Part shown: positions 3,380 through 36,981 of the stretch, one piece after another
How the letters are laid out: each line of letters begins with the position of its first letter
Numbering within the stretch: position 1 is the first letter of the stretch
Assembly: GCF_000348785.1 (NCBI RefSeq)
Contig: NC_020520.1
Coordinates: 3,472,001 to 3,536,000 of the forward strand
Direction of reading: 5' to 3'
Origin: Ilumatobacter coccineus YM16-304
GTDB taxonomy: Bacteria > Actinomycetota > Acidimicrobiia > Acidimicrobiales > Ilumatobacteraceae
Length of the DNA: 64,000 nucleotides
Notes under the pieces: model-generated
Database searches by the model: none
What the model saw: only the letters and a program-made list of their open reading frames with translations
Told to the model about the DNA's origin: nothing
Made by a program: the position numbers and the translations under genes

Positions 3380-3425
3380 CCCCGACGTGTCGCACCCCAT
3401 GTCCGAGACCGGTCATGATGGCACG

Positions 3426-5039: not shown

Positions 5040-5143
5040 CCGTCGCGTCGCTGATCAGCCTGCTCGCGCGATCTGGCGTCACGGGTTCGTGAACAACGCG
5101 ATCGGAAGCGAGAATCGACGCGTCGGTTTGGCACGATGTACGA

Positions 5144-6106
5144 ATGCAGGAACGCACATTGCCGATCGTTGCCGAAGGATTGCAGCGGCACTTCGGCTCG
5201 GGGGACGACATCGTCAAGGCGGTCGACGGCGTCGACCTCAAGATCGAACCCGGAGAGATCTTCGGGTTCCTCGGCCCGAACGGTGCCGGCAAGTCGACCA
5301 CGGTGAGGATGCTCACCACGCTGCTGCGTCCGACAGGAGGCGTCGGTCGGGTCGCCGGTTTCGACGTCGTGACCGAGGCCGACAGCGTGCGCCGCAACAT
5401 CGGCGTCGCCCTCCAGGACGCGGCGATCGACCCGCTGATGACGGGCACCGAACTCCTCCGCCTGCAAGCCGTGCTGTACGGCCTCCCGAAGGCGCAACAC
5501 CACACCAAGGCGGGTGAACTGCTCGAACGGGTCGGACTCACCGCGGCGGGCGACCGGCGCGTCGGCACGTACTCGGGCGGCATGCGCCGACGCCTCGACC
5601 TGGCGCTGTCGCTCATCCACGAACCGTCGGTGCTGTTCCTCGACGAGCCGACGACGGGGCTCGATCCGATGAGCCGGATCTCCCTCTGGGAGGAGATCCG
5701 CCGCCTCAACAACGACGGCACCACCGTGCTGCTCACCACGCAGTACCTCGAAGAAGCCGACCAGTTGGCCGAGCGGATCGCCATCATCGATCACGGCGTG
5801 ATCGTGCGCAAGGGTCGACCCGCCGAGTTGAAGGCCGAAGTCGGCTCACCCACCCTGTTCGTGACCGTCGACGAGAGTTCGAAGGAGGTGGCGACCGAAC
5901 GCCTCGCCACGTTCGGCGAGCTCCGGCCGAGCGCCGAGGGCAAACTCGGCGTGGGACTCACCGACGGTCCGAGTGGCGTGTCGAGCGTGGTCCGCGATCT
6001 CGACGACCGTGGCATCACGGTGCGCAACCTCGAACTCCACGAGCCGAGCCTCGACGACGTGTTCGCCGAAGCGACCGGGTACCGCCTCGAAGGCGCCGAG
6101 GGCTGA
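5144..6106 (+). CDS. ABC transporter ATP-binding protein, DrrA type
   Basis: This 320-residue ATPase energises the exporter formed with the two permeases that follow. Walker A is GPNGAGKST (about residues 45-53), the signature is YSGGMRRRLDLA, Walker B is VLFLDEPTTGLD, and the switch region reads TTQYLEEADQLA. The Gln-Tyr in place of His-Asp at the H-loop and the C-terminal extension of about 90 residues are typical of the daunorubicin-resistance (DrrA) group. The next gene starts 4 bases after the stop. The cargo is unknown; relatives move drugs, lipids or antibiotics. Confidence 0.9.
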   Translation: MQERTLPIVAEGLQRHFGSGDDIVKAVDGVDLKIEPGEIFGFLGPNGAGKSTTVRMLTTLLRPTGGVGRVAGFDVVTEADSVRRNIGVALQDAAIDPLMTGTELLRLQAVLYGLPKAQHHTKAGELLERVGLTAAGDRRVGTYSGGMRRRLDLALSLIHEPSVLFLDEPTTGLDPMSRISLWEEIRRLNNDGTTVLLTTQYLEEADQLAERIAIIDHGVIVRKGRPAELKAEVGSPTLFVTVDESSKEVATERLATFGELRPSAEGKLGVGLTDGPSGVSSVVRDLDDRGITVRNLELHEPSLDDVFAEATGYRLEGAEG

Positions 6107-6110
6107 TCGC

Positions 6111-6929
6111 ATGACGACCACCCTCGCCCCGACCACCGGGCGCCGAGCGATGTCGACGTCGACCGTCGCACAGACCTGGGCGATGTCGGTTCGCTCGATG
6201 CAGTCGCTGGTCCGGCAGCCGGCGCTCGTCGTGCCGTCGCTGATCTTCCCGCTGTTCTTCGCCGCCCTCGGCACCTCGTCGTTCTCGCGGGCCACTGACC
6301 TCCCTGGCTTCCCCGCCGTCGACTCGTACCTCGACTTCGCCCTCGCCGGCGCGATCGTCCAGGGCATTCTCTTCGGCTCGACGACCGGTGCGACGGCACT
6401 CGCCACCGACATCGAGAACGGGTTCTTCGATCGGCTGCTCGCCTCGCCGTCGACCCGCACCGGCATCATCGTCGGGCGTATGGCCGGCGGCATGGCCTAC
6501 GGCGCGTTCCAATCGCTCTTCTTCGTGCTCGTGCTGCTGCCGTTCGGGTTGAGCGTGAAGGGCGGCATCGGGGGCGTGCTCGGCCTGATGGTCGCCGGGA
6601 CCGTGCTCGCGCTCGCCGTCGGTGCGCTGATGGCCGCCATGGCGCTGCTCACCGGATCGTCGGAAGCGGTGCAGGGCGCGTTCCCACTGCTCTTCATCGG
6701 ATTGTTCTTCTCGTCGGCGTTCTTCCCGCGAGAGACGATGAGCGGCGTCTACGGCCGGATGGCCGACTTCAATCCGATCTCGTATCTCGTCGAAGGGATG
6801 CGTGACCTCGTGATCGAGGGCGTCTCCGCCTCGGCGCTCGCCCGGGCGATTCTCGTCCCGGCTGCGCTCTCGGTGTTCACGATCATGCTGTCGCTGCGAG
6901 CGCTCAAGCGTCGGCTGGGGGCGTCATGA
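6111..6929 (+). CDS. ABC-2 type transporter permease
   Basis: This is the first membrane subunit of the DrrAB-like exporter (272 aa). It has about six hydrophobic segments, among them ALVVPSLIFPLFFAALG, LFFVLVLLPFGL and LLFIGLFFSSAFF. The stretch GFFDRLLASPSTR and the ending FNPISYLVEGMRDL are characteristic of the ABC-2/DrrB family. ATG 6111 lies 4 bases after the ATPase stop. The gene ends in a 4-base ATGA overlap with the next permease, so the three genes form one operon. Confidence 0.88.
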   Translation: MTTTLAPTTGRRAMSTSTVAQTWAMSVRSMQSLVRQPALVVPSLIFPLFFAALGTSSFSRATDLPGFPAVDSYLDFALAGAIVQGILFGSTTGATALATDIENGFFDRLLASPSTRTGIIVGRMAGGMAYGAFQSLFFVLVLLPFGLSVKGGIGGVLGLMVAGTVLALAVGALMAAMALLTGSSEAVQGAFPLLFIGLFFSSAFFPRETMSGVYGRMADFNPISYLVEGMRDLVIEGVSASALARAILVPAALSVFTIMLSLRALKRRLGAS

Positions 6930-7747
6930 CCACCACCGAGACCGCCCGGTCGGCTCGCCCGCTCAACACCCGACGGACTCCGGCGTTCGCGGCTGCGGTC
7001 GGCCTCGCCCGGCGCAGCATCGTCAACATCACGCGGCTGCCGTCTGCCTTCCTGCCGTCGATCCTGATGCCGGTCTTCCAGTCGATCGCGTTCGCCGGCA
7101 CCTTCTTCGCCATCATCCAGATTCCCGGCTTCCCCACCGATCGCTCGATCAACTGGTTCCTCCCGCTCGGCACGCTGATGGGTTCGGGGTTCGCCGGCAT
7201 CGGCATCGGTTTCGCGACGATCCGCGACCTCGAGACCGGCTTCTACGACCGAATCCGGCTCACCCCGGCACCGCGCTCGTCGCTGATCACCGGTCCGCTG
7301 ATGGCCGCACTGGCTCGCTCCGCGATCGTCACCACCATCGTGGTCATCGTCGGCGTGTGCTTCGGTGCCCGTCCGACGCACGGCTTGTACGGATTGCTGT
7401 TCCTCTACATCGCCGGGCTCGGTATCGCTGCGCTCGGCACCGGGTGGGGACTCGCGTTGGCGTTCCGCTTCGGCGACATGCGCGCTGCCGCGATCATGCA
7501 GCTCACGTTCTTCCTGATGATCTTCCTGACCGACGCGCAGACGCCGCTCTTCATCATGGACGGCTGGCTCGAGGCGGTGGCCCGAGTCAACCCGTTCACC
7601 AACATCATCCGCCTCGCCCGACTCGGCTGGCTCGATGCACCGATCACCTGGGATCGCATCTGGGGCGGACTGGTCGCGCTGGCGGCGATCACCGGACTCA
7701 CCCTGCTCTTCGCTCGCCGCTCGCTCGACCGGCTGAGCGACAACTGA
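6926..7747 (+). CDS. ABC-2 type transporter permease
   Basis: This is the second membrane subunit (273 aa) of the same exporter and a paralogue of the preceding permease. It has the corresponding cytosolic motif GFYDRIRLTPAPRSSL and the late motif ARVNPFTNIIRLARLGWL, with six hydrophobic segments between them. Start and upstream stop overlap by four bases. The operon probably ends at the palindrome at 7751-7779. Confidence 0.88.
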   Translation: MTTTETARSARPLNTRRTPAFAAAVGLARRSIVNITRLPSAFLPSILMPVFQSIAFAGTFFAIIQIPGFPTDRSINWFLPLGTLMGSGFAGIGIGFATIRDLETGFYDRIRLTPAPRSSLITGPLMAALARSAIVTTIVVIVGVCFGARPTHGLYGLLFLYIAGLGIAALGTGWGLALAFRFGDMRAAAIMQLTFFLMIFLTDAQTPLFIMDGWLEAVARVNPFTNIIRLARLGWLDAPITWDRIWGGLVALAAITGLTLLFARRSLDRLSDN

Positions 7748-7750
7748 CCC

Positions 7751-7779
7751 GGACGGTTTGTCTCAGAGACAAACCGTCC
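7751..7779. terminator. Perfect 14-bp palindrome after the ABC exporter operon
   Basis: The arms GGACGGTTTGTCTC and GAGACAAACCGTCC are exact reverse complements around a single A at 7765. They sit 3 bases after the permease stop and 45 bases before the LLM oxidoreductase start. As RNA the apical bases would open and leave a stem of about 12 bp. A terminator is most likely; with a nearly seamless dyad it could also be an operator for the gene at 7824. Confidence 0.6.
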
Positions 7780-7823
7780 GCTTCGTGTACGAGACGGCGA
7801 CCGGCATGTGATCTGCTGGGGGC

Positions 7824-9068
7824 ATGAGATTCGGGATCTTCTACGAGCACCAGTTGCCCAAACCGTGGACCGACGACGCCGAGTACCGGTTGCTGCAGGA
7901 AGCCCTCGACCAGGTCGAACTCGCCGACCGGCTCGGCTTCGACTACGCGTGGGAGGTCGAACACCACTTCCTCGACGAGTACTCCCACTCGTCGGCACCC
8001 GAGGTCTTCCTCGCTGCGGCCGCGGCCAGAACGAAGCACATCCGACTCGGGCACGGCATCCGCCAGGTGATCCCGAACTACAACCACCCGGCCCGCACCG
8101 CCGAAGGGTTGGCGACGCTCGACCTGATCTCCGACGGCCGCGTCGACTTCGGCATCGGTGAAGGCGCCACCCGTATGGAGTTGCACGGATTCGACATCCC
8201 GGCCAAGCACAAGCGGGCGATGTCGCTCGAGGCCGCCGAGCAGGTCGCGAACATGATGGTGCTCGACCCGTACCCAGGGTTCGAGTCGGAGTTCTTTTCG
8301 ATGCCGTGCCGCAACGTGCTCCCCAAGCCGCGCCAGAAGCCGCACCCACCGATGTGGATGGCATGCACCAACCGCGACACGATCAAGGTCGCAGCGCGCA
8401 ACGGCATCGGAGCACTCGCCTTCAGCTTCATCGACCCCGACGAAGCCAAGGCTTGGTCGGAGATCTACTACGGCATCATCGCGTCCGACGAGTGCGTGCC
8501 GCTCGGCCATTCGGTCAACGCCAACCTCGCGATGGTGACCGGGTTCTCGATGCACGAGGACCGCGAGACCGCGATTCGCAACGGTCGCGAAGGCTTCGAG
8601 TTCTTCGGCTACGCGATGCGGTCGCTGGTCGCCACCGACCAGGTACCGGGTCGAACCACGCTGTGGGACGACTTCCAGGCTGGCCGTGACCCGGCCACCG
8701 AAGCCGCTCGTGTAGCGGCAGCGATCGAGGCAGGCGACGACTACGCGAGCTGCATCGGCACGCCCGACGATGCTCGTCGCTACCTGCGCGAACTCGCCGA
8801 GGTCGGTGTCGACCAGGTGATCTTCATTCAGCAGGCCGGGCGCAACCAGCACGACGACATCTGCGCCTCACTCGAGATGTTCGCCGTCGAGGTCCTCCCC
8901 GAGTTCACGGCCGGCCGAGCCGACCGCGAGGCCGCGAAGCAGGAACGTCTCGCTCCGCACATCGCGGCTGCCCTCGCTCGTAAGCAGTGGATGCAGCCGT
9001 TGGCCGATGCCGACATCCCGGTCGTCGAGGCCTCCCGTAAGAACTTCACGCCGCGCCCTGTCGGCTGA
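7824..9068 (+). CDS. LLM class flavin-dependent monooxygenase/oxidoreductase
   Basis: The 414-residue protein belongs to the bacterial luciferase-like TIM-barrel family that uses FMNH2 or F420 supplied by a separate reductase. Family marks are the start MRFGIFYEHQLP, ADRLGFDYAWEVEHHF, the strand KHIRLGHGI followed by a turn, and the segment LDLISDGRVDFGIGEG. The length suits the alkanal monooxygenase-like branch, with a C-terminal extension of about 60 residues. The substrate is unknown. It is monocistronic, convergent with the gene at 9120. Confidence 0.85.
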   Translation: MRFGIFYEHQLPKPWTDDAEYRLLQEALDQVELADRLGFDYAWEVEHHFLDEYSHSSAPEVFLAAAAARTKHIRLGHGIRQVIPNYNHPARTAEGLATLDLISDGRVDFGIGEGATRMELHGFDIPAKHKRAMSLEAAEQVANMMVLDPYPGFESEFFSMPCRNVLPKPRQKPHPPMWMACTNRDTIKVAARNGIGALAFSFIDPDEAKAWSEIYYGIIASDECVPLGHSVNANLAMVTGFSMHEDRETAIRNGREGFEFFGYAMRSLVATDQVPGRTTLWDDFQAGRDPATEAARVAAAIEAGDDYASCIGTPDDARRYLRELAEVGVDQVIFIQQAGRNQHDDICASLEMFAVEVLPEFTAGRADREAAKQERLAPHIAAALARKQWMQPLADADIPVVEASRKNFTPRPVG

Positions 9069-24564: not shown

Positions 24565-25236
24565 ATGCGACTGCTGTGCCTCGGTCTCGCGACCGCGCTG
24601 CTCGTCGGAACGGGTTGTTCGTCCGGGAGCGATGCCGCGGCCGATTCGGCGGGGCTCGCCCGATCGGGTGTCGGCATCGTCGCCGAAGGGTGCGGACCCA
24701 ACCCGACGTTCGGGAGCGGCGTCGTCGTGGGCGCCTCGGGCCAGGTCGTCACCGTCGCGCACACGCTGCGCGGCACCACCGACGTGGTGGTCGTCGACGT
24801 CGACGGCAACGAGCACGCGGCCGACGTGGTGGCGTTCGACAAGGACGCCGACCTCGCTGTCGTGAGTGCGAGCACACTCGAGGCGCCGATGCTCGACCTC
24901 GGCGATGTCGGCACCGGGCCGGGCCGGGCACTCGTGTGGTCGCGCGATCTCGGGGTTCGCGAGGTGCCGGTCGACGTCGCCAAGCGACTCGTGGTCACGA
25001 TCGAAGACATCTACGGCGAGGGACGGGTGCGACGAGCGGCCGTCGAGGTGGTCGCCGACATCGAGGTCGGTCACTCCGGTGGCCCGATCCTCGACGAGGA
25101 TGGCGGCGTGATCGGCATCATCTACGCGGCATCCACCCAGCGCGACCGAGTCGGCTTCGCCGTCGATGCCACCGAAGTCGAGCGCGTGTTGCGCGCCGTC
25201 GACGCGTCCGGTGTCGAGACCGGACCGTGCCCATGA
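24565..25236 (+). CDS. Trypsin-like serine protease lipoprotein (HtrA-like protease domain)
   Basis: The 223-residue protein starts with MRLLCLGLATALLVGTGC, a lipoprotein signal, so it should be outside the membrane. The chymotrypsin-fold triad is complete: His in VTVAHTL, Asp in DKDADLAVV, Ser in VGHSGGPI. There is no PDZ domain, unlike DegP/HtrA. An in-frame GTG at 24529 would add twelve residues. Its stop overlaps the start of the FAD monooxygenase gene by four bases, an odd partnership between an exported protease and a cytosolic enzyme. Confidence 0.78.
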   Translation: MRLLCLGLATALLVGTGCSSGSDAAADSAGLARSGVGIVAEGCGPNPTFGSGVVVGASGQVVTVAHTLRGTTDVVVVDVDGNEHAADVVAFDKDADLAVVSASTLEAPMLDLGDVGTGPGRALVWSRDLGVREVPVDVAKRLVVTIEDIYGEGRVRRAAVEVVADIEVGHSGGPILDEDGGVIGIIYAASTQRDRVGFAVDATEVERVLRAVDASGVETGPCP

Positions 25237-26519
25237 CGACGCCGACCGCTCCCGTGCTCGTCGCCGGTGGCGGCATCGCCGGGCTCACGATGGCGCTCAC
25301 CTGCCACCAGATCGGGGTTCCCGTGGTGGTGCTCGAGTCGGTGCGCACCCTTGCCCCATTGGGCGTGGGCATCAACCTGCAGCCCAACGCGATCCGCGAG
25401 CTGATCGATCTCGGCTTCGGCGAGCAGTTGGACGACATCGGCATCGAGGCGACCGAATGGGCGCTCGTGGGGCGCGGCGGCAACGACGTGTGGTCAGAAC
25501 CGCGAGGGCGAGCGGCTGGATACCGCTGGCCGCAGTATGCGGTTCACCGTGGCGAGTTGCAGATGATGTTGTATCGGGCCGTGATCGAGCGGCTGGGGCC
25601 CGACGCCGTTCGCACCGGGCACCGAGTGGTCGGCTACCGGAACACGAGCGGTGGCGTCGTCGCCGTGGTCGATCGACGCGACGGCACGACCACCGAGTTG
25701 CACGGTTCACTGTTGATCGCCGCCGACGGTCTGCATTCCGCAGTGCGGGCGCAGATGCACCCAAGCCAGCCCGAGCCGCACTGGGGCGGCCAGATCCTGT
25801 GGCGTGGCGCCACACCCGGTCCGCCGGTGCGGTCGGGCGCGGCGTTCACCCTCGTCGGCACGATCGATCAGCGGTTCGTGCACTACCCGATCTCGCGGGT
25901 CGATCCCGACTCCGGGCTGCAGTTGCAGAACTGGATCGCCGAGCTCACCGTCGACACCGACGGCGGGTTGGCCGGAAGCGACTGGAACCGGCGCGTCGAC
26001 ATCGAGTCGTTCCTCCCGGCGTTCGACGACTGGACGTTCGACTGGCTCGACATTCCGGGGCTCGTTCGCGGTGCACCGGCCGTGTGGGAGTTTCCGATGG
26101 TCGATCGCGATCCCGTCGATCGGTGGGTCGACGGCCGTGTGTGTCTCGTCGGCGATGCCGCGCACGTGATGTATCCCGTCGGTTCGAACGGTGCGAGTCA
26201 GGCGATCGTCGACGCCCGCGTGCTGGGCGCGAAGTTCGTCGAGTTCGGGATCGACGTCGATGCGCTCGCCGCGTTCGAGGCGCAACTGATCGAACCGATC
26301 TCGGCGCTGGTGCTCCGCAACCGGGGGCACGGGCCGATCGGCATCCTGCGACTCGTCGACGAGCGATGCGGCGGCTACTTCGACGACATCGACGACGTGA
26401 TCCCTCGGGCGGAGGTCGAAGCGTTCATGGCCGACTACAAGGCAGCAGCCGGTTTCGCGATGGCCGAACTGAACGAAGCACCGCCCACGATCCCGCCCGG
26501 ATCGGGCGTGACGCGATAG
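25233..26519 (+). CDS. FAD-dependent monooxygenase (PHBH-like)
   Basis: This 428-residue group A flavoprotein uses NAD(P)H and O2 to hydroxylate an aromatic or related substrate. It has the N-terminal dinucleotide motif VAGGGIAGLTMAL, the middle DG motif LLIAADGLHSAVR, and the FAD ribityl-binding motif VCLVGDAAHVMYPVGSNGASQAI. The order and length fit salicylate or 6-hydroxynicotinate hydroxylase-like enzymes. The start overlaps the protease stop (ATGA). Confidence 0.87.
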   Translation: MTTPTAPVLVAGGGIAGLTMALTCHQIGVPVVVLESVRTLAPLGVGINLQPNAIRELIDLGFGEQLDDIGIEATEWALVGRGGNDVWSEPRGRAAGYRWPQYAVHRGELQMMLYRAVIERLGPDAVRTGHRVVGYRNTSGGVVAVVDRRDGTTTELHGSLLIAADGLHSAVRAQMHPSQPEPHWGGQILWRGATPGPPVRSGAAFTLVGTIDQRFVHYPISRVDPDSGLQLQNWIAELTVDTDGGLAGSDWNRRVDIESFLPAFDDWTFDWLDIPGLVRGAPAVWEFPMVDRDPVDRWVDGRVCLVGDAAHVMYPVGSNGASQAIVDARVLGAKFVEFGIDVDALAAFEAQLIEPISALVLRNRGHGPIGILRLVDERCGGYFDDIDDVIPRAEVEAFMADYKAAAGFAMAELNEAPPTIPPGSGVTR

Positions 26520-26538
26520 CTCCGCCCGGTCGAGACGC

Positions 26539-26582
26539 GGCCGGGGCACGGCCGGGGCACGGTCGGGGCGCGGTCGGGGCGC
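26539..26582. repeat. Four 11-bp tandem repeats
   Basis: Two copies of GGCCGGGGCAC are followed by two of GGTCGGGGCGC and then a degenerate fifth. They lie in the 125-base gap between the FAD monooxygenase stop and the phosphatase start. The 11-base period is one helical turn, so the repeat could be a stacked binding site or simple slippage. Confidence 0.7.
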
Positions 26583-26644
26583 GGTCGCGCATCGATTGCG
26601 CGGTGGACGATACGCCGACACGTGGATGCTTCTACAGTGACGTG

Positions 26645-28750
26645 ATGCGCCAGCACCCGACGGACCCCGACGAACTCGCGGCGCTGATCGAGGCCAGACT
26701 CACCGACCCGGTACGCGTCGAGGCGGTGCACACCACGGGCCTGATGGATCTTCCGGTCGGCCGCGGTTTCGACCGGATCTCCAACCTCGCTCAGGCGTTG
26801 CTCGGCGCCTCGTACGGGTTCATCTCGATCATCGACGAGGAGAACGCCGGCTGGTTGGCCACCGTCGGCACCAAGGTCGAGAAGCCGTCCGATCGAACCA
26901 TTCCGGCCTCCGAGTCGATGGCACAGTACGTGGTCGCCTACGACGACGCGTTCCTGGTGTCGGATGTCGAGCACGACGAGCGCGTCGAACTCAGTGACAC
27001 GCTGCAGGGCTATGGGGTGCGCTCGTGGGCGGGGGTGCCGCTCCGAGACCAGTTCGGCAACGCACTGGGCGCACTCGGCGTGTCGGAGACGGCGACGCGC
27101 GACTGGACTGAGACCGATGTGGCCTTGCTGAAGGACCTCGCACAGATTGCAACCGACGAGATCACCGCGGGGAAGACGGCGCGCGATGCCGCTCGTTCGG
27201 AGGCGGTGCTGAACGCCGTGTTGGCGCGTGCTCCGATCGGCATCGCGCTCGTCGATTCCGACTTCCGCTACGAGATCGTCAACGAGACGTTGGCGGAGAT
27301 CAACGGCATGCCGGTCGACGACCACATCGGTCGGACGATGAGCGAGATCGTGCCCGACGTCGCCGACGCGGTGATGGCGTTGCTTCGACCGGTGTTCGAG
27401 ACCGGTGAAGCTGCGACCGGCGTCGAGGTCTCCGGACACACGGCGGCGGCGCCCGACGTCGAACGAACCTGGTCTGGCAGCTACTACCGGATCGAACTCG
27501 CCGATGGCCCTCGGGTCGGCATCATGATCGAAGACATCACCGATCGAGCGGCTGCGCGCCGACGAGCGCTGAGCCTCGCTCGCATCGCCGAAGCGCTGGC
27601 CAAAGCGGATTCGTTCGACGACATCGCCGAGGTGGTCAACGCCGATGTGGCGGCGTACTTCGACGCGATGATCGCCATCGTCGGACTGTGGGATGCCGGC
27701 TCGAAGTCGGCGAGATTCATCGCCGCCGACGGCATCGCCGAACGCGTCGAGCAGGCCACCTACGACATCGACGACGATGCGCCGTACGCGTTGGCCGCCC
27801 GCACCCGCCAGATCGTCACGGTCGGCAGCCCCGCCGAACGGGCTGAGCGGTTCACCTCCGACGTGGGCGCCGCACTGGTCGCCGAAGCGGTCGTGCCCTG
27901 CCTGACCAGCGACGGGAGCCTCGTCGGCTCGATGACGATCGGCTGGAACCATCCGATGGCGGCCGACGACTTTCCGATCCCACAACTGCAGACCGTCGGC
28001 GGGCTGATCGGGAGCGTGGTGGAGCGGACGCGGCTGCATCGCCAGCGCCGCGAACTCATCACAGAACTGCAGAACACGCTGCTGTCGCCACCGTGCGAGC
28101 AGCCCAACATCACCACGGCCGTGCGCTACGAACCGGCCGAGGACGCCACCGGACTCGGGGGCGACTGGTTCGACGTCGTCGCTATCGACGAACACCGGAC
28201 CGGGCTCGTCGTGGGCGACGTGGTCGGCCACGGTCCGTCGGCTGCCGCACGCATGTCGCAGATCGGATCGACCATCGCACAGTTGCTGATCCTCGACACC
28301 CCGCTCGATCGCGTGTTCTCCGAAGCCGAACGGGTGCTCAGCGCCCGCTCGATCGACACGATGGCGACGGTCGCCGTGATCGTCGCCGACACGCAGAACC
28401 GCACGCTGACCTCGATCTCGGCCGGGCACCTGCCGGCCATCCTCGTGCATCCTGGCGGGGAGACCGAGACGCTCGAACCGGCACTCCGGCCACCGCTGTG
28501 CACCTACGATCGCCCGGTCGCGCCGACAGCGGTCGCATACGAACCCGGCACGAAGGTCGTACTGTTCACCGACGGCTTGATCGAGACGAAGGACGGCGAC
28601 ATCGACACCGACATGGCTCGGCTGCTCGGCCTCACGAACGCCGTGGCCGGACTCGACATCGAGCAGCTGCTCGATCGGCTCGTGAGCGATGTGACCCGTG
28701 GTCGAACCCAGTTCGACGATCTGGCTGCGCTCGCCGCCGAGCTCTACTGA
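26645..28750 (+). CDS. GAF-PAS-GAF-PP2C (SpoIIE-type) phosphatase
   Basis: This 701-residue cytoplasmic sensor phosphatase should dephosphorylate an anti-sigma factor antagonist. A GAF domain spans about residues 40-180, a PAS domain 185-305 (ARAPIGIALVDSDFRYEIVNETLAEING), a second GAF 310-475, and the PPM phosphatase 485-701. The phosphatase keeps the metal Asp residues in GGDWFDV, GDVVGHGPSAAARM and LFTDGLIE, plus SAGHLPAI. The likely target, a STAS protein, is the next gene. ATG 26645 is chosen; a GTG lies 3 bases earlier. Confidence 0.87.
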   Translation: MRQHPTDPDELAALIEARLTDPVRVEAVHTTGLMDLPVGRGFDRISNLAQALLGASYGFISIIDEENAGWLATVGTKVEKPSDRTIPASESMAQYVVAYDDAFLVSDVEHDERVELSDTLQGYGVRSWAGVPLRDQFGNALGALGVSETATRDWTETDVALLKDLAQIATDEITAGKTARDAARSEAVLNAVLARAPIGIALVDSDFRYEIVNETLAEINGMPVDDHIGRTMSEIVPDVADAVMALLRPVFETGEAATGVEVSGHTAAAPDVERTWSGSYYRIELADGPRVGIMIEDITDRAAARRRALSLARIAEALAKADSFDDIAEVVNADVAAYFDAMIAIVGLWDAGSKSARFIAADGIAERVEQATYDIDDDAPYALAARTRQIVTVGSPAERAERFTSDVGAALVAEAVVPCLTSDGSLVGSMTIGWNHPMAADDFPIPQLQTVGGLIGSVVERTRLHRQRRELITELQNTLLSPPCEQPNITTAVRYEPAEDATGLGGDWFDVVAIDEHRTGLVVGDVVGHGPSAAARMSQIGSTIAQLLILDTPLDRVFSEAERVLSARSIDTMATVAVIVADTQNRTLTSISAGHLPAILVHPGGETETLEPALRPPLCTYDRPVAPTAVAYEPGTKVVLFTDGLIETKDGDIDTDMARLLGLTNAVAGLDIEQLLDRLVSDVTRGRTQFDDLAALAAELY

Positions 28751-28809
28751 CAGTGTCTATGCGACCACCGGTCGTTGCGGCGGACCGGCCGGGCTGCGAT
28801 ACTCCCGCA

Positions 28810-29106
28810 GTGAGTTCTTTTCGGATCGAGCGTGACGGCGGGACGCTCGTCGTGTTCGGCGACCTCGACGCTTCGACGGCACCGATGGTGAACGACGCGG
28901 TGGCCGACACCACCGGCGACATCCGACTCGATCTCCGCAACTGCACGTTCGTCGATTCGTCCGGGCTCAATGCGATCATCGCTGCGAACAACACGGCCAT
29001 CGAACGCGAGGCGGTGCTCACGCTCGTCGAGCCGAGCAAGGCCGTGCTCCAGCTGCTGCGCGTCTGCGGCATGAGCGACGTGTTCGCCATCGACACCGAC
29101 GACTGA
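28810..29106 (+). CDS. STAS-domain anti-sigma factor antagonist
   Basis: The 98-residue protein is a single STAS domain like SpoIIAA or RsbV. The phosphorylatable Ser is in FVDSSGLNAI, at the expected strand-helix junction. GTG 28810 starts the fold directly (SSFRIERDGG); an ATG at 28759 would add 17 residues that look untranslated. It is the probable substrate of the upstream PP2C phosphatase. No partner kinase (RsbW type) or sigma factor is in the window. Confidence 0.8.
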   Translation: MSSFRIERDGGTLVVFGDLDASTAPMVNDAVADTTGDIRLDLRNCTFVDSSGLNAIIAANNTAIEREAVLTLVEPSKAVLQLLRVCGMSDVFAIDTDD

Positions 29107-29130: not shown

Positions 29131-31704
29131 TCAGCCGGTCGTCGCTGCTCGCCGTTCGACGATCGTCATCATCTCGCGAGCGACCATCGGGCCGGCGTTC
29201 TGGTTCTGACCGGTGACCAGGTTGCCGTCGACGACCCAGTGGTTCGCGAGCGGATCACGCACTCGGGTCGCGCTCTCGAAGTTGGCCCCGGCACGCCGCA
29301 GCTCACGCTCGGGGTGGTGTGGAGTTGCTTCGATGCCGAGTTCGCGGACCTGTTTGTCGGTGACCGCCGAGACCTTGCGCCCCGCCACGAGCGGCGTGCC
29401 GTCGGTGGCCTTCGCGTTGACGAGGCCGAGCGGGCCGTGGCACACGCCGCCGAGGACGACATCGGCGGCGTTCGCCTCGGTCATCTTCCGGGCGAGCGAG
29501 TCGGAGAAACCGAAGTCGAAGGCGGCGCCCCATCCGCCGGCCAGGAAGACGATGTCGTAGTCGGACATGTCGAGATCGGCGATGGGTTTCGAGTCGGCGA
29601 CCTTCGCCTTGAAGTCGTCGTCGGCGAGGAATCGATCGTCGTCGGCCGATCGGATGACGGGCCTGAGCGACTTGGGGTCGACCGCCACCATGCCGCCCGA
29701 CGGGCTTGCGACGTCGACCTCCATACCTGCGTCGGCGAACGCGTAATAGGGCACGGTCATCTCGCTGGCGAAGACGCCGGTGGGCTTCGCCACGTCGAGC
29801 CACGCCACGTTCGTGGCCACGACCAGCGCCCGCTTGCCGGTGAGGTCGAAGGCACGTGCGTCGGGATCGTCGGGGTGCATCCCGGCGCGACGAAGCGCGG
29901 CGCGGAGCAGTCGTGCGGGAGGAGGCGGTCGCTTCGCCGGTGGAGGTGCCGTGGGTTGGCGTGATGCGTATGGCCAGGGCTGGTTGCGCCGTGGCACCGC
30001 TCGCGTGCGCTCGCGCTCGAGGTCGAGGCAGAGGCGGTCGAACACGTCGGCGACGCTTGGGTCGATGCCGACGTCGTGCCAACGGTTGTGCGCCTCCGCC
30101 GGGTCGTGGTCGAGGTCGTACAACTCCCACTGGTCGGGCAGCGGCTCGGTGCGGTACTGATCGGGTCCGGGCGTGCCGCTCGATGCGAGGTGGCGCACTC
30201 CCGGTTCGGTCCAGGTGTCGGGGTCGTCGTACACGCGGACGATTTTCCAGAGCGTGCCGTCGACGCGGTGGACGAGCGCTTCGAAGTTCGACGCGACGTG
30301 GGCCGGCGTCTTGATGCGCAGGGGCAGCGGCGGGGGTTCGGTTCGCCCGAGCCTGCGGGCGAGGCCCGATGCTCCGCTGTCTCCTTCGAGCATGTTGTCG
30401 TTGGTCATGAGGTACACGGCGCGATCGGGGTCGGCGAGCGTCGGGTCGTCGACGATCGGCATGAGGTCGTTGCCGGGGAGTGGGTGGACTTCGGTGAACT
30501 CGGCGCGGAGCACATCGGTCGTCGCCGTCGTGTCGATGCCCGCCGCGGCGACGAGCGTCGGCACGATGTCGACGTGGGAGGTGGGCGCGCCGTCGATGAC
30601 TGCGGGTCGAGACGGTGATGGGCCGACGCGGACGAGCGAGAACGGGACGCGGGTGGCTTCGTCGTACAGGTTGAACCACTTCTGGTGGAGGCCGCCGTGC
30701 GCGCCGAGCAGATCGCCGTGGTCGGAGGTCTTGGCGATGACGGCGTGCGAACCGCTGTCGGTGACCGCTCGGCGCACGCGGTCGAGCGGAGTGTCGACCT
30801 CGGCGTGCAGGCGGTGATAGAGGTCGCGGTACTCCTGTGCCTTGCCCTCGTAGGCGTTGTGCACGACTCGCGCCGGGCCGTAACTCGAGGGGTAGGTGTC
30901 GCGGTAGGCGATCTGCGCAGCCGGTTTGGTGGCGAGGTCCTCGTGCTGCGTCGGGGCCTCTGGGACGGGGGGCGGATCGAGCGGCGACGGGGTGATCGGG
31001 TTGTTGCGTCGGGCCCACACGGGGAAGAGCACGATGTCGTGCGGGTTGACGAAGCTCGCGACGAGCAGGAACGGACGCTGCGCATCTGCATCGCCGGCGG
31101 CGCGGCGGGCGTAGCGGTCGTCGAGCCAGGCGACGACTCGGTCGGCGATCAGCGGGTCGCGCCGCACGCCGCTGTTGCGGAGTTCGCCGCCGTGTGGTTC
31201 GGGGCCGATCCAGCCGGAGAACCCGAACGGGGCGAGCGGGTCGGCATCGCGATAGCGCTCGACGCCGTCGGGAAGGACGTTGCCGTCGTCGTCGTTCGAG
31301 TCGATGCGCCGGCCGTCGGCGTCGTGGAGGTCGGCGTGCGAGAGGTGCCACTTGCCGTCGTAGTGCGTGTCGTAGCCCGCGGCGCGGAACCAGTGGCCGA
31401 GCGTTGGGACCTCTCCGGCGCGCAGCCAGCGCATGCGGGAATCGTCGGCCATCTTGCCGAGCCCGTCGGTCTGGGTGACGCCGTGGACCGCCGGGTACTG
31501 CCCGGTGAAGATCGTCGGCCGGCTCGGCACACAGGCGAGCGAGCCGGTGTAGTGGCGACGAAAGTTGACAGCATGGTCCTCGAACCATCGGGCGCCCGGG
31601 AGGCTGGCGCGGCGCCAGGCGGCGACCTCGGCCGACTCGTAGGGCGGTGCGGCACGTTCCTCGTCGGTCATGATGAGGATGACATCGGGACGGTCGTTGC
31701 TCAC
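29131..31704 (-). CDS. Sulfatase fused to a DJ-1/PfpI domain
   Basis: The 857-residue protein joins two enzymes in one frame. Residues 1 to about 560 are a Cys-type sulfatase: DVILIMTDEE at the first metal site, the formylglycine motif CVPSR at Cys58, GKWHLS, and KTSDHGDLLGAHG. A Pro/Arg-rich linker (about 575-615) leads to a DJ-1/PfpI domain at 619-850 that begins FDLTGKRALVV, has the conserved Glu in GVFASEMTVP, and the nucleophile elbow GGVCHGPLG with Cys755 followed by His. Both active sites look intact. The GTG start overlaps the SRPBCC stop by four bases. I know of no described enzyme with this architecture. Confidence 0.85.
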   Translation of the reverse strand: MSNDRPDVILIMTDEERAAPPYESAEVAAWRRASLPGARWFEDHAVNFRRHYTGSLACVPSRPTIFTGQYPAVHGVTQTDGLGKMADDSRMRWLRAGEVPTLGHWFRAAGYDTHYDGKWHLSHADLHDADGRRIDSNDDDGNVLPDGVERYRDADPLAPFGFSGWIGPEPHGGELRNSGVRRDPLIADRVVAWLDDRYARRAAGDADAQRPFLLVASFVNPHDIVLFPVWARRNNPITPSPLDPPPVPEAPTQHEDLATKPAAQIAYRDTYPSSYGPARVVHNAYEGKAQEYRDLYHRLHAEVDTPLDRVRRAVTDSGSHAVIAKTSDHGDLLGAHGGLHQKWFNLYDEATRVPFSLVRVGPSPSRPAVIDGAPTSHVDIVPTLVAAAGIDTTATTDVLRAEFTEVHPLPGNDLMPIVDDPTLADPDRAVYLMTNDNMLEGDSGASGLARRLGRTEPPPLPLRIKTPAHVASNFEALVHRVDGTLWKIVRVYDDPDTWTEPGVRHLASSGTPGPDQYRTEPLPDQWELYDLDHDPAEAHNRWHDVGIDPSVADVFDRLCLDLERERTRAVPRRNQPWPYASRQPTAPPPAKRPPPPARLLRAALRRAGMHPDDPDARAFDLTGKRALVVATNVAWLDVAKPTGVFASEMTVPYYAFADAGMEVDVASPSGGMVAVDPKSLRPVIRSADDDRFLADDDFKAKVADSKPIADLDMSDYDIVFLAGGWGAAFDFGFSDSLARKMTEANAADVVLGGVCHGPLGLVNAKATDGTPLVAGRKVSAVTDKQVRELGIEATPHHPERELRRAGANFESATRVRDPLANHWVVDGNLVTGQNQNAGPMVAREMMTIVERRAATTG

Positions 31705-32153
31705 GAGGCGACTCCGTTCGTGGTGGCGAGGTGTCGGGCGAGGCCATCGATCATGCGTTCCGAGGCGGCCGCGAACCGCTTCGCGGCGAGTCGTGCGATG
31801 AGCTGTTGTGGAGGGCGCGGTCCGGCGTCGATGGAGGTGACGAGGCTGACCGTGGTCGAGTCGCCGGACGGGGTGAGCCGCCACGTGTTGGTCACGTCAC
31901 GGAGCACCGGTGGCAGTCCGGTGATCCGGTACGCCAGCGTGCCCGGCGGGTCCCAGGTGGTGACGGTTTCGACGATGGTCGCCCGCGCGGTCTGGATCCG
32001 CCGCGTCGCGCCGACGCCGTCGGGTTGCGTGGTCATCAGACAGGAGTGGTCGACGTCGGGTGCCCAGGCGCTGATCGCCTCGAACTCGGCGAGCGCCGCC
32101 CAGACCAGGTCTCGGGGCGCGTCGATCACGCCCGTTCGCTCCACGGAGGTCAT
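31701..32153 (-). CDS. SRPBCC (polyketide cyclase/START-like) protein
   Basis: This 150-residue protein has the helix-grip fold that binds hydrophobic ligands. It opens with ERTGVIDAPRDLVWAALAEFEAI, ends with a long helix (RLAAKRFAAASERMIDGLARHL) and has TNTWRLTP in the middle. It lies between the haloalkane dehalogenase and the sulfatase-DJ-1 fusion in one operon and overlaps the latter by four bases, so it may carry or modify a lipophilic substrate of that pathway. Confidence 0.78.
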   Translation of the reverse strand: MTSVERTGVIDAPRDLVWAALAEFEAISAWAPDVDHSCLMTTQPDGVGATRRIQTARATIVETVTTWDPPGTLAYRITGLPPVLRDVTNTWRLTPSGDSTTVSLVTSIDAGPRPPQQLIARLAAKRFAAASERMIDGLARHLATTNGVAS

Positions 32154-32189: not shown

Positions 32190-33098
32190 TCAGCCCCGTG
32201 CGATCGCGTCGAGGATGACCTCGGCGATCTGCGGTGCGCCGTCTTCCTGGAAGAAGTGGTGAGCGTTCGTGATGGTCGTGTGCGGCTGGCCCTCGGTGCC
32301 AGGCACCAGCTTCAGGAAGATCTTGTCGCCACCCCCGGTGATCGGGTCGCTGTCGCTGAAGCAGCAGACGAAGGGTTTGGTCCAGGCTCTGAAGACCTCC
32401 CACGCCGCTCGGTTGGCGTCGGCCGCCGGGTCGTCGGTCGAGGTGGGGACGAGCGACGGGAAGATCCGGGCGCCCTCCTTGTAGGTCTCGTCGGGGAACG
32501 GTGCGTCGTAGGCGGCGATCTCGGCGTCGGTGAGTTCGGTGATCGTGGCGCCGTTCAGGATCTGGCCGATCGGGAAGACCGGTGATTCCTGGCTGAACTT
32601 CTGCCAGTCGAGGAAGGCCTGGCTGGGTGATCCTTCGCCGGTCGGCAGGCCGGTGTTGCCGATCACGACGCGGGCGAACCGGTCGGGGTTCTCGGCGACG
32701 AGGCGCAGCCCCACGAGGCCTCCCCAGTCCTGTCCGAAGAAGGTGGCGTCGGTCAGGTCGAGGTGGTCGATGATCGCCGCCTGCATCCAGGCGACGTGTC
32801 GCTCGTAGGTGTAGTCGGACTTCTCGGTCGGCTTGTCGCTCTTGCCGAATCCGACGAGGTCGGGGGCGATGACGCGGGCGCCGCCTGCGACGAGGAGCGG
32901 GATGATCTTGCGGTACAGGTAGCTCCACGATGGTTCGCCGTGCATCGCGAGGACGACCGGGCCGTCGGCTGGGCCTTCGTCGAGGTAGTGGACGCGGAGG
33001 CTGCCGCCGTCTTGGTCGTCGACGTCGACGTAGTTCGGAGCGAACGGGTAGTCGGGCAGGTCCGCGAAGCGTTCGTCGGGGGTGCGCAGTGTGTGCAT
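32190..33098 (-). CDS. Haloalkane dehalogenase (HLD-I, DhlA/DhmA type)
   Basis: The enzyme (302 aa) replaces a carbon-bound halogen with hydroxyl. It resembles Xanthobacter DhlA along most of its length: RTPDERFADLPDYPFAPNY at the start, HGEPSWSYLYRK, and the nucleophile in GQDWGGLVG, where Asp124 and Trp125 fall at the DhlA numbers for the nucleophile and the first halide-binding Trp. FLDWQKF (Trp165) is the likely second halide-binding Trp. An Asp in FSDSDPITGG and the His in NAHHFFQEDG complete the triad. An epoxide hydrolase is less likely because Trp follows the nucleophile and the cap Trp is kept. Confidence 0.85.
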   Translation of the reverse strand: MHTLRTPDERFADLPDYPFAPNYVDVDDQDGGSLRVHYLDEGPADGPVVLAMHGEPSWSYLYRKIIPLLVAGGARVIAPDLVGFGKSDKPTEKSDYTYERHVAWMQAAIIDHLDLTDATFFGQDWGGLVGLRLVAENPDRFARVVIGNTGLPTGEGSPSQAFLDWQKFSQESPVFPIGQILNGATITELTDAEIAAYDAPFPDETYKEGARIFPSLVPTSTDDPAADANRAAWEVFRAWTKPFVCCFSDSDPITGGGDKIFLKLVPGTEGQPHTTITNAHHFFQEDGAPQIAEVILDAIARG

Positions 33099-33150
33099 GT
33101 CGGTGCTCTCAGTCGGTGGCGGGCTGGGTGGTGGATGGGTTGCGCCGCGT

Positions 33151-34014
33151 TCAGCGCGGTGTGATCTCGACGCGATGGAGGTCGTCGCCGACTTCGATCG
33201 TGCCATCGAATTCGGTGGCGGCGAGTGCGCGCCAGTCGTCGGCGGTGCCGCTCTGTGGGATCGGCGGGACGTAGTGCGTGAGGATCAGCGTGTCGACCTC
33301 GGCGCGAGCGGCGGTGGCGCCGGCCTCTTCGGGAGAGGAGTGGTAGTCGAGCGTGTCGACCATGCGCTGGAACGGCACGTTGGCAATGATGTCTTTGCGG
33401 ATCGTCGTGTGCACGAGTGCGTTCGCCCCGGTGCACAGGGCGTCGAGGCCGGTGCATGGCACGGTGTCGCCGGCGACGACGACGCTCGCTCCGTCGTGGT
33501 CGAAGCGGTAGCCGACGCTCGGGTCGACCGGTTTGTGGTCGGTCTGCTCGCACGTGATCGTGACGGCGCCGCCCTGCCCGTCGGGCAGGTGCACCTCGCC
33601 GCGCTCGACTTCGATCACGGTGACCGGCGGCCGATGATCGAGGTCGTCGTGGTGGGCGAGGCGGTAGCCGACGTCGGGGTCGAGCGAGGCCAGGATGTGG
33701 TCGACGACCTGCCGTGTGCCGACCGGGCCGACGATGGTGAGCGGTGTCTCGGTGAAGGTCATGACCCAGCGGGTGGTGATCACGTCGTTGAGGTCGGTGA
33801 TGTGGTCGCTGTGCAGGTGGGTGATCCACACCGCCGTGAGGTTCGGGGCACCGAGTCCGAGGGCGGCGAGGCGCATCAGCACACCGCGACCGGCGTCGAC
33901 GAGGTGGTGCTCGGCGTCGGCTCCTTCGCCGGCCGAGATCAGCGTGGCGGGCCCGGCACGATCGGGCGCCGGCAGCGGCGACCCCGTCCCGAGCAGCGTG
34001 ACAGCGAGCGTCAT
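33151..34014 (-). CDS. MBL-fold metallo-hydrolase (RNase Z-like)
   Basis: The protein (287 aa) has the binuclear zinc motif THLHSDH (His66, His68, Asp70, His71) and later ligands in VVAGDTVPC and ILTHYVPP. The start [13 protein letters not shown] is typical of the RNase Z/arylsulfatase-like group, which includes tRNA 3' processing enzymes and small-molecule esterases. The place in a sulfatase and dehalogenase operon favours a small-molecule hydrolase. It is not like SdsA-type alkylsulfatases, which are more than twice as long. Confidence 0.75.
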
Positions 34015-34075: not shown

Positions 34076-36352
34076 TCATTGGCGGCTCATTTCTGCTGCG
34101 GCCTCGGCGTCTCTCGCTTCGGCGTCTTGTCGGCTCAGGAGTTGGATCTCGACCTCGTGGAGTCGGCCTTCGAACGGGAAGGGCGCCTCGTAGCGCTGCG
34201 ACACCGCCGATCCGTGGTCGTAGGCGACGCTCGGCCCGACCGACGACATCATCCGCATGAAGAGCGGGAGGTCGGCGGTTCCGGCAGCGTGGCCGTCGAT
34301 CAGGAGCGACATCTCACCGGCCATGCCCGCTCGGCGCCGCAACTGGACGACGAGCGTGGCATCGCCGGTCGGGATCTCGCGGTCGGATTCGAGGATGGTG
34401 TGTTCGTCGAACGCGTTGTAGTCGACGACGAGGCGGTTGTGCTGGACGAACACCGACATGCCGGAGTTCTCGGTGCCGGTCGCGTAGATCACTCCCCCGC
34501 TGTCGGCGTCGCGTGTGATGCGCGCGGTGAGGTCGAACGACTTGCCGGCGATCGCCGCAGCCGCTTGCCCCGGCATCGGCGACATCGGCGGTCGGTAGAC
34601 GTAGCGCATGTCGGCCGGGTGCGGGGAGTTGTCGCGGAAGCGGGCACCGAAGAGTTCGATCATGCGGTCGTCGAGCGGGAGCACGCCATGTCGCTCGGCT
34701 TCGCGCCACCACAGGTCGATCAGTTCGGCGAGTTTGTCGGGCTGGTCGGCGGCCACGTCGTTGCACTCCGACCAGTCGTCGCTCAGCCGGTAGAGCTCCC
34801 AGGGTTCGGTGTCGTAGTCGCCTCCGGCGGTGTGTTTGCACACCGCCTTCCACGAGACGCCGTCGTCGTCGAGTTGGACGAGCGCTCGACTCCCGGCCAT
34901 CTCGAAGTACTGCACGCGATTGGTGGCTGGCGCAGCAGCATCGGCGAGAGCTTGGGCGAAGGAGTGTCCGGTCACGGGGAGTTGGTCGATGCCGCGGTAC
35001 GTGTCGGGCGGGGTGATGCCCACGAGTTCGTAGATGGTCGGAACGATGTCGGCGACGTTGACGAACTGGTCGCGGAGCCCGTGCGCCTCGGGGTCGACGT
35101 GGCGCGGCGCGTGGACGATCATCGGCACGTGCACGCCGCCTTCGTGCGTGTTCTGCTTGTACCACTTGAAGGGCGAGTTGCCGCACTGCGCCCAGCCCCA
35201 CGGGTAGTTGGTGTGGCTGTGCGGACCGCCGATGTCGTCGATCTGATCGATCATGGCGTCACCGTCTTCGAAGATGCCGTTGAAGAACTTCATCTCGTGC
35301 ATCACGCCGAACGGCCCGCCCTCCTGGGAGGCACCGTTGTCGGCAAGGACGACGAAGATCGTGTTGTCGAGTTCGCCGATGCTGCGCAGCGACTCGACCA
35401 GCCGCCCGATCTGGGCGTCGGTGTGATCGAGGAATGCGGCAAAGGCTTCCTGCAGGCGTGCCGCGACTCGCTGCTGGTTGACCGGCAGGTCGTCCCACGC
35501 CTCGACCCCCGGATTCCGAGGCGCGAGTTGCGTGCCATCGGGGATGACACCGAGTTCGAGTTGGCGTTCGTACCACCGCTGGCGGATGACGTCCCATCCC
35601 TCGTCGTACCGGCCCCGATACTTGTCGAGGTACGCCTGGGGCGCCTGGTGTGGCGCGTGGGTGGCACCGAACGGGAGGTAGGCGAAGAACGGTCGGTCGG
35701 GTCGCACGCCCTTGCTGTCGCTGATCATCCTCGTCAACTGGTCGACGAGGTCTTCGCTGACGTGATAGCCGTCGGCGGGCCCTGCTGGTGGCTCGATCGG
35801 ATGGTTGTCGCAGACGAGGTCGGGGTGGAACTGATCGGTCTCGCCTTCGAGGAACCCGTAGAACCGGTCGAACCCGCGGGCGAGCGGCCACTGGTCGAAG
35901 GGCCCGGCAGCTGAGCACTGCTCCATCGGGGCGAGGTGCCATTTGCCGACGCAGAAGGTGGCGTATCCCTCGTGCTTGAGCACTTCGGCGATCGTGGCCG
36001 CGTGGTTGCTGATGTGGCCGAGTTGGTTGGGGAACCCGGTGCGGAAGTTCGACACCGTGCGCATTCCGACGGCGTGCTGCGACCGGCCCGTGAGCAACGA
36101 GGCGCGCGTAGGCGAGCACAGCGGCGTGACGTGGAAGTTGGTGAACTGGAGCCCGCCGGCGGCCAGCGCGTCGATGTTGGGCGTGTCGATGTCGGAGCCG
36201 TAGCACCCGAACTGGGCGAAGCCGGTGTCGTCGAGCAGCACGACGACGACGTTGGGGGCATCGGCACCCGGATGGGGCGGCTCGTCGTGCCACGCCTCCG
36301 AGTCGGCCAGGGTGCGACCGATCGTTCCTTCGAATCGGGATGGATGCGTCAT
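34076..36352 (-). CDS. Arylsulfatase (AtsA-like, Cys type)
   Basis: This 758-residue enzyme matches the large actinobacterial arylsulfatases such as AtsA. NVVVVLLDDTGFAQFGCYG gives the paired metal Asp residues, LCSPTRASLLTGR the formylglycine motif at Cys79, CVGKWHLAP the sulfate-binding Lys and His, and VLADNGAS the C-terminal metal site. A C-terminal extension of about 200 residues (from about 560) ends in a beta-rich domain that includes MSLLIDGHAAG. No signal peptide is visible. ATG 36352 overlaps the stop of the TetR gene by four bases. It was placed first in the operon after its likely regulator. Confidence 0.9.
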   Translation of the reverse strand: MTHPSRFEGTIGRTLADSEAWHDEPPHPGADAPNVVVVLLDDTGFAQFGCYGSDIDTPNIDALAAGGLQFTNFHVTPLCSPTRASLLTGRSQHAVGMRTVSNFRTGFPNQLGHISNHAATIAEVLKHEGYATFCVGKWHLAPMEQCSAAGPFDQWPLARGFDRFYGFLEGETDQFHPDLVCDNHPIEPPAGPADGYHVSEDLVDQLTRMISDSKGVRPDRPFFAYLPFGATHAPHQAPQAYLDKYRGRYDEGWDVIRQRWYERQLELGVIPDGTQLAPRNPGVEAWDDLPVNQQRVAARLQEAFAAFLDHTDAQIGRLVESLRSIGELDNTIFVVLADNGASQEGGPFGVMHEMKFFNGIFEDGDAMIDQIDDIGGPHSHTNYPWGWAQCGNSPFKWYKQNTHEGGVHVPMIVHAPRHVDPEAHGLRDQFVNVADIVPTIYELVGITPPDTYRGIDQLPVTGHSFAQALADAAAPATNRVQYFEMAGSRALVQLDDDGVSWKAVCKHTAGGDYDTEPWELYRLSDDWSECNDVAADQPDKLAELIDLWWREAERHGVLPLDDRMIELFGARFRDNSPHPADMRYVYRPPMSPMPGQAAAAIAGKSFDLTARITRDADSGGVIYATGTENSGMSVFVQHNRLVVDYNAFDEHTILESDREIPTGDATLVVQLRRRAGMAGEMSLLIDGHAAGTADLPLFMRMMSSVGPSVAYDHGSAVSQRYEAPFPFEGRLHEVEIQLLSRQDAEARDAEAAAEMSRQ

Positions 36353-36981
36353 GCCGGGTCTCCCTGGTTGCCGTCGCTCCATGCAGCGACGAGTGCCGTG
36401 ACCGCTCGACGCCACGTGCGTTCGATCTGACGACGGGTGCGGCCGTGCGACGCCCGCAAGACCTCGAAGGCCTCGGGCGACGTGGCGGCGTCGACGAGCG
36501 CGACGAGGTTGGCCGCCTCGGTCGGCGTGAGCCGGCTCGTCTCGGCACGCAGACACTGCTGCGTCTGCTCGGCGAGGAGCATCCGCTGGTTACTCACGCG
36601 GTCGGCCATCGGCTCGTGATCGAGCGACCGCTGACGAGCGAGGGCCATGAGCGAACCGGCTGCCGCGAACAGGTCGATGCGGGACCGCACGAGTCGATCG
36701 ATGCGGTCGTCGACCGCCGCCGCCTCGTCGAAGTCGACGGCCAACAGGTGCCCGTAGCGAGCTTCGAACTCGACGAACGCCTGGCTCCGCATGTCGTCGA
36801 GGCCGTCGAACATGCGGAAGATCGACGAGACGGAGACGCCGGAACGCTCGGCGATCTGGTCGACCGCAGGAGGCACCTTGCCGTCATCGATCAGCGCGAA
36901 CACCGCGTCGATCACCGCTGCGCGACTGCGTTCGCGGCGCGCTCGCCGGCCGTCGACGGGCGTCGCTGGATCGTGCGGCAT
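36349..36981 (-). CDS. TetR-family regulator of the sulfatase cluster
   Basis: The 210-residue regulator has an N-terminal helix-turn-helix (IDAVFALIDDG, VDQIAERSGVSVSSIFRMFDGLDDM) and a helical ligand domain. It is translationally coupled to the arylsulfatase gene, so it probably senses a substrate or product of that pathway. The dyad at 37010-37030, 29 bases upstream of its start, is a good candidate for its own operator, and the regulator would then control the whole minus-strand block. Confidence 0.82.
   Translation of the reverse strand: MPHDPATPVDGRRARRERSRAAVIDAVFALIDDGKVPPAVDQIAERSGVSVSSIFRMFDGLDDMRSQAFVEFEARYGHLLAVDFDEAAAVDDRIDRLVRSRIDLFAAAGSLMALARQRSLDHEPMADRVSNQRMLLAEQTQQCLRAETSRLTPTEAANLVALVDAATSPEAFEVLRASHGRTRRQIERTWRRAVTALVAAWSDGNQGDPA

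Follow-up and report, generated by a model that had tools for sequence, protein, structure and literature searches.

Why should a sulfatase carry a second domain related to DJ-1, the Parkinson's protein, and what could this domain contribute? The question is raised by one gene in a stretch of 64,000 nucleotides of Ilumatobacter coccineus YM16-304, referred to here as the window. The functions of the DJ-1 family are disputed, and as most of its members are standalone proteins their natural substrates are hard to guess. The literature we searched contained no paper describing a sulfatase-DJ-1 architecture, which does not prove that none exists.

The fused gene and its family

An unbroken frame of 857 codons had been noted from the letters, with the strand left unstated. 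It was found on the minus strand, running from 31704 to 29131, and the plus strand of this segment contains stops. The Pfam family Sulfatase matches residues 6-390 (E 7.5e-36, 124 bits, cut-off 25) and DJ-1_PfpI matches residues 646-846 (E 4.4e-12, 46.6 bits, cut-off 26.6), both exceeding the curated cut-offs. An AlphaFold2 model of the protein has two confident domains with a weak linker at about residues 580-590 (mean pLDDT 86, pTM 0.71). In model-to-structure matches the sulfatase half reaches Z ~29 with the solved choline sulfatase, and the DJ-1 half Z 30-32 with 1u9c/Hsp31 (Z 32 with 1u9c). The Cys-type sulfatase with Cys58 in CVPSR, as read from the sequence, is thus borne out by Pfam and by its conservation in all 80 fusions, and the complete DJ-1/PfpI domain in the same protein by Pfam and the fold match. 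No NCBIfam equivalog scored above its cut-off for the fusion protein; it reaches 82 bits for choline sulfatase (TIGR03417, cut-off 433) and 41 bits for HchA (NF003168, cut-off 365). No signal peptide was seen by eye, and a promoter and terminator scan found nothing. The features are collected in Table 1.

Table 1. Positions in the window of the fusion gene, its domains and key residues, and the genes upstream of it.
Feature	Position	Strand	Remarks
Sulfatase-DJ-1 fusion gene	29131..31704	-	857 codons, GTG start, stop 29131-29133; full-length relatives exist
Sulfatase domain PF00884, residues 6-390	30535..31689	-	Pfam match; C-terminal sulfatase subdomain runs on to about residue 580
Cys58, formylglycine precursor in CVPSR (ACVPSR)	31531..31533	-	80/80 fusions
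Pro/Arg-rich linker, residues ~584-622	29839..29955	-	Standalone orthologues end here; low pLDDT at 584-587; raised dN
DJ-1/PfpI domain, Hsp31 type, residues 623-853	29146..29838	-	Pfam and structure matches
Cys755, DJ-1 nucleophile, in GGVCHGP; His756 next	29440..29442	-	80/80 fusions
Val786, equivalent of yeast Hsp31 triad Glu170	29347..29349	-	Val 78/80, Ile 2/80
SRPBCC gene (Polyketide_cyc2, PF10604)	31701..32153	-	Stop overlaps fusion GTG start by 4 bases (GTGA)
Haloalkane dehalogenase-like alpha/beta hydrolase	32190..33206	-	NF002043 471 bits, cut-off 265; near fusion in 26/80 loci
MBL-fold (metallo-beta-lactamase) hydrolase, RNase Z type	33151..34014	-	Near fusion in 27/80 loci
Second Cys-type sulfatase (CSPTR), without DJ-1 domain	34076..36355	-	Recurs near fusion in ~18 loci

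That annotation or assembly created the fusion by joining two genes through a frameshift has a negligible probability, and nothing was seen that speaks for it. A scan of one genome collection gave 311 relatives, of which the 80 best, nearly all of them full-length fusions, were kept. These come from independent assemblies of Acidimicrobiia, Frankiales, Nocardioides and Streptomyces, are 58-81% identical over their full length, and include isolates such as Nocardioides sp. Root1257, Streptomyces sp. CB02009 and IMCC26207. The residue counts given here for the fusions refer to 80 distinct proteins. A restriction of the fusion to a single assembly, with split genes in the relatives, is excluded by about 80 distinct full-length proteins. 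The gene also sits in a finished genome: the window genome is a single contig of 4,830,181 bases, the size published for the finished genome of Ilumatobacter coccineum YM16-304 (PMC3910706).

The artefact is further rejected by the purifying selection on both halves, as dN/dS from synonymous and non-synonymous counts in close pairs is about 0.05-0.2 for the sulfatase half and the DJ-1 half alike, while the dN of the linker exceeds that of both domains in most of these pairs. The selection is therefore equally strong on the two halves. Unvarying in all 80 fusions are D14, C58, P60, R62, K118, H120, H222, D328, H329 and K342 of the sulfatase as well as E648, G723, G724, C755 and H756 of the DJ-1 domain. 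The low dN/dS together with these unvarying residues indicates that the DJ-1 half is retained for a reason. Within Actinomycetota the fusion forms a family that is old and well conserved. Among the Acidimicrobiia, 21 of the 246 genomes of at least 90% completeness bear it.

Among viral contigs no relatives were found. The plasmids yielded only sulfatases that lack DJ-1 and fall below 40% identity, as well as standalone DJ-1 proteins with identities of at most 40%. Two loci that had looked like further DJ-1 fusions (L160 and L161) were discarded because their upstream frames looked spurious, leaving ordinary standalone DJ-1 genes. At one other locus (L150) a DJ-1 gene adjoins an alpha/beta hydrolase.

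Active site of the DJ-1 half

The sequence-only reading placed Glu, Cys and His of the DJ-1 domain where they are expected. For Glu648, Cys755 and His756 this is correct; what is missing is the acid that completes a triad of the Hsp31 type. In yeast Hsp31 the triad consists of Cys138, His139 and Glu170 (PMC4021431), and Glu170 (in TDVGE) aligns without a gap with Val786 of the fusion (in TDKQV). The Cys-His-Glu triad is accordingly absent from the fusions, which carry Val (78 out of 80) or Ile (2 out of 80) at this position, compared to Glu in 27 out of 27 standalone relatives (24 out of 24 actinobacterial and 3 out of 3 plasmid-borne, the latter from other phyla). The residue before it is Gln in the fusions and Glu in the actinobacterial standalone proteins. 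In all fusions the motif GGHG has become GGWG (W725), and only the fused family has H797, Q835-N836 and a short insertion from R816-D817 to A820-N821 (the RDPxAN loop). Judged by these alignments, the DJ-1 half is a variant of its own within the Hsp31/glyoxalase III type, with a conserved, remodelled pocket.

This version appears to live only within the fusion. Among the DJ-1 genes of 296 Actinomycetota genomes no standalone one is closer than 38% identity to the fused domain, whereas the fused ones share at least 64%, and it is from this difference that we regard the subtype as fusion-only. Neither these 296 genomes nor the plasmids yielded a standalone copy of it. In one respect the fusion is therefore more interesting than had been stated from the letters, since its DJ-1 subtype is fusion-specific, lacks the triad acid and has a pocket whose remodelling is conserved.

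The loss of the acid need not mean a loss of chemistry. In E. coli HchA the alpha-oxoaldehyde hydratase activity is abolished when Glu77, Cys185 or one of the two glycines of the GlyGly motif is changed; proteins lacking His186 or the third acid still have about 55-64% of kcat/Km (PMC11301059). All residues essential for the hydratase activity are present in the fusion, and only the dispensable third acid is lost. It is for this reason that carbonyl hydration by the DJ-1 half would still be possible, in a pocket that is probably shaped differently.

One might then regard the DJ-1 half as a general glyoxalase or deglycase for methylglyoxal detoxification or glycation repair, fused merely for co-expression. 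Its nearest solved relatives are indeed glyoxalase III/Hsp31 proteins, and the hydratase residues are kept. We nevertheless consider this improbable: a housekeeping detoxifier has no need to be joined to a sulfatase, the fusions consistently differ from the standalone relatives in the pocket, and the subtype was never met as a standalone protein in the 296 Actinomycetota genomes or on plasmids.

Partner genes, orthologues without DJ-1 and formylglycine

Wherever the contig reaches far enough (77 out of 77 fusion loci), an SRPBCC gene lies directly upstream of the fusion on the same strand. In the window the overlap of its stop with the GTG start of the fusion reads CTCGTGAGC. SRPBCC proteins bind hydrophobic ligands, and a small hydrophobic organosulfate is therefore a reasonable guess for the substrate of the sulfatase, drawn by analogy. 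The dehalogenase-like, MBL-fold and second-sulfatase genes occur nearby in a quarter to a third of the fusion loci, which suggests organosulfate or xenobiotic-like metabolism. The genes downstream of the fusion vary by clade, and no common pathway can be read from them.

Some further observations concern this neighbourhood and the rest of the window. The MBL protein barely passes the NCBIfam cut-off for RNase Z (366.5 bits compared to 363), yet it travels with the sulfatase cluster; it may hydrolyse esters or act like a sulfatase, and not serve in tRNA processing. The second sulfatase has a long C-terminal part without a Pfam match. A sulfatase-family gene with the active-site motif CMPAR is found at 3387-5039 on the plus strand, following a peptidase M23-like gene. 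A plus-strand frame at 25166-29106 with GAF, PAS and SpoIIE phosphatase domains is followed by a STAS-domain gene, and the two are likely an anti-sigma regulatory pair.

The role of the DJ-1 half can be approached through orthologues that lack it. Complete Mycobacterium-like genomes of 5-6 Mb (loci L152-L155 and L164-L174) encode a sulfatase about 70% identical that ends in the linker, without DJ-1, and retains all sulfatase catalytic residues. In the four of these loci whose surroundings were read, SRPBCC is directly upstream of the sulfatase, and no DJ-1 gene lies closer than about 5 kb. Since SRPBCC is present with or without DJ-1, it is tied to the sulfatase and not to DJ-1. In one of the mycobacterial loci (L153, genome G131, 4484-8545) a fatty acyl ligase-like gene comes after the SRPBCC-sulfatase pair; it was not seen in the others checked. 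A paralogue without DJ-1 also occurs in two Acidimicrobiia genomes. The DJ-1 half appears dispensable for the sulfatase step, and its role as an essential partner of the sulfatase is weakened by these orthologues.

As to the direction of change, both standalone groups nest inside the fused ones in a careful tree, and the fused rows form one clade in 0 out of 200 bootstrap trees; an AU test did not reject the alternative of a single fused clade (p 0.21). Quicker trees gave little resolution, and the constrained tree even scored higher when a long-branch outgroup was used. One old fusion with later losses of DJ-1 is favoured by the careful tree over a later gain.

The aldehyde nature of formylglycine had led to the proposal that the DJ-1 half protects or regenerates this residue of the sulfatase, aldehydes being the targets of DJ-1 enzymes. 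Some fusion-bearing genomes, that of the window among them, are also without FGE. We regard the proposal as very unlikely, since orthologues about 70% identical would work without DJ-1, judging from their conserved active sites, and FGE is found in 15 out of 21 fusion-bearing compared to 36 out of 225 other genomes (246 Acidimicrobiia, Fisher p 1.8e-7, relatedness ignored). This co-occurrence fits an ordinary FGE-matured sulfatase and weakens a role of DJ-1 as maturase. Furthermore, formylglycine sulfatases other than the fusion are not known to have a DJ-1 domain, and the formylglycine of sulfatases rests as a hydrate, so that a hydratase would hydrate a group that already is one.

The genomes without FGE deserve a separate look. 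In the window genome we found no FGE, the only protein with an FGE domain being EgtB-like, and no anSME over the cut-off. It has eight sulfatase-family genes, at least five of them with the Cys-type CxPxR motif. The fusion without FGE is also found in a second complete genome (G571), which belongs to the same family as that of the window. It is a remote prospect that in genomes with Cys-type sulfatases and neither FGE nor anSME the fused DJ-1 domain makes, repairs or holds ready the active-site aldehyde; if true, this would be a self-contained sulfatase carrying its own maturation or repair module. A Cys sulfatase without the modification can retain low activity (PMC6189696), and the missing FGE and anSME are therefore no proof of another maturase.

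Proposed function and comparison with known systems

We tentatively propose, with a probability of roughly 0.4, that the fusion is a cytosolic bifunctional enzyme in which a sulfatase is combined with a DJ-1 half that hydrates a reactive carbonyl of the same organosulfate pathway. The cytosolic location would follow from the inspection for signal peptides. The N-terminal half would act as a formylglycine-type S1 sulfatase on a small, probably hydrophobic organosulfate, assisted by the SRPBCC protein from the overlapping upstream gene. The C-terminal Hsp31-type half would bring the carbonyl-hydration machinery of Glu648, Cys755 and the GlyGly motif, having lost the protease-like third acid and reshaped its pocket. 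Its substrate would probably be a carbonyl that arises in this degradation pathway as a product or by-product, and the two reactions may be coupled. Processing of an aldehyde product was among the ideas first put forward from the letters. Handling of such an aldehyde or of another carbonyl appears to be the best-supported version of them and is consistent with the conserved Glu-Cys-GlyGly residues.

Three points speak against the bifunctional enzyme, namely that the sulfatase step appears not to need DJ-1, that SRPBCC pairs with the sulfatase regardless of DJ-1, and that the downstream genes, which vary by clade, reveal no shared pathway. The pocket changes (W725, V786, H797 and the R816-D817 loop) could equally serve binding as catalysis. 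The DJ-1 half might instead be a non-enzymatic binding or oligomerisation module, providing a dimer interface, stability, a site for a regulatory ligand or a redox site at Cys755. Consistent with this somewhat unlikely explanation are the loss of the triad acid in all members, the existence of orthologues without DJ-1, and the family-specific invariant residues W725, H797, R816, N821, Q835 and N836, which lie outside the nucleophile site. Hsp31-type proteins, moreover, are known to form dimers (PMC11301059). A mere scaffold, however, would not need Glu648, Gly723, Gly724, Cys755 and His756, which are kept in 80 out of 80 fusions, and a redox or ligand site would account for this conservation only in part.

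The fusion offers an approach to DJ-1 function. Across many species it links a consistently altered DJ-1 domain to a single enzyme and a single partner gene. The substrate of the sulfatase, if found, should lead to that of the DJ-1 half and thereby assign a DJ-1 domain a defined task in metabolism. As orthologues that have the domain and orthologues that lack it both occur in nature, they can be compared directly.

Among known systems, the sulfatase half is nearest to the S1 formylglycine sulfatases, with the choline sulfatase of Ensifer meliloti (6fny, 7pth), the SpAS sulfatases and the phosphonate monoester hydrolases as closest solved structures. It shares with them the alkaline-phosphatase-type fold (Z ~29), the Cys of CxPxR and the catalytic Asp, His, Lys and Arg, but is only about 22% identical, and the fusion adds the C-terminal DJ-1 domain and the SRPBCC partner gene. 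With the Hsp31/glyoxalase III class II proteins (1u9c, 4p5p) the DJ-1 half has in common the fold, the Cys-His nucleophile elbow, the Glu near the Cys and the GlyGly oxyanion motif; it differs from them by Val in place of the triad Glu, Gln in place of the preceding Glu, GGWG in place of GGHG, the RDPxAN insertion and the attached sulfatase. The standalone Mycobacterium-like sulfatases share the sulfatase half at about 70% identity and, in the four loci read, the upstream SRPBCC gene, and differ in that they end in the linker, where the fusion continues into DJ-1.
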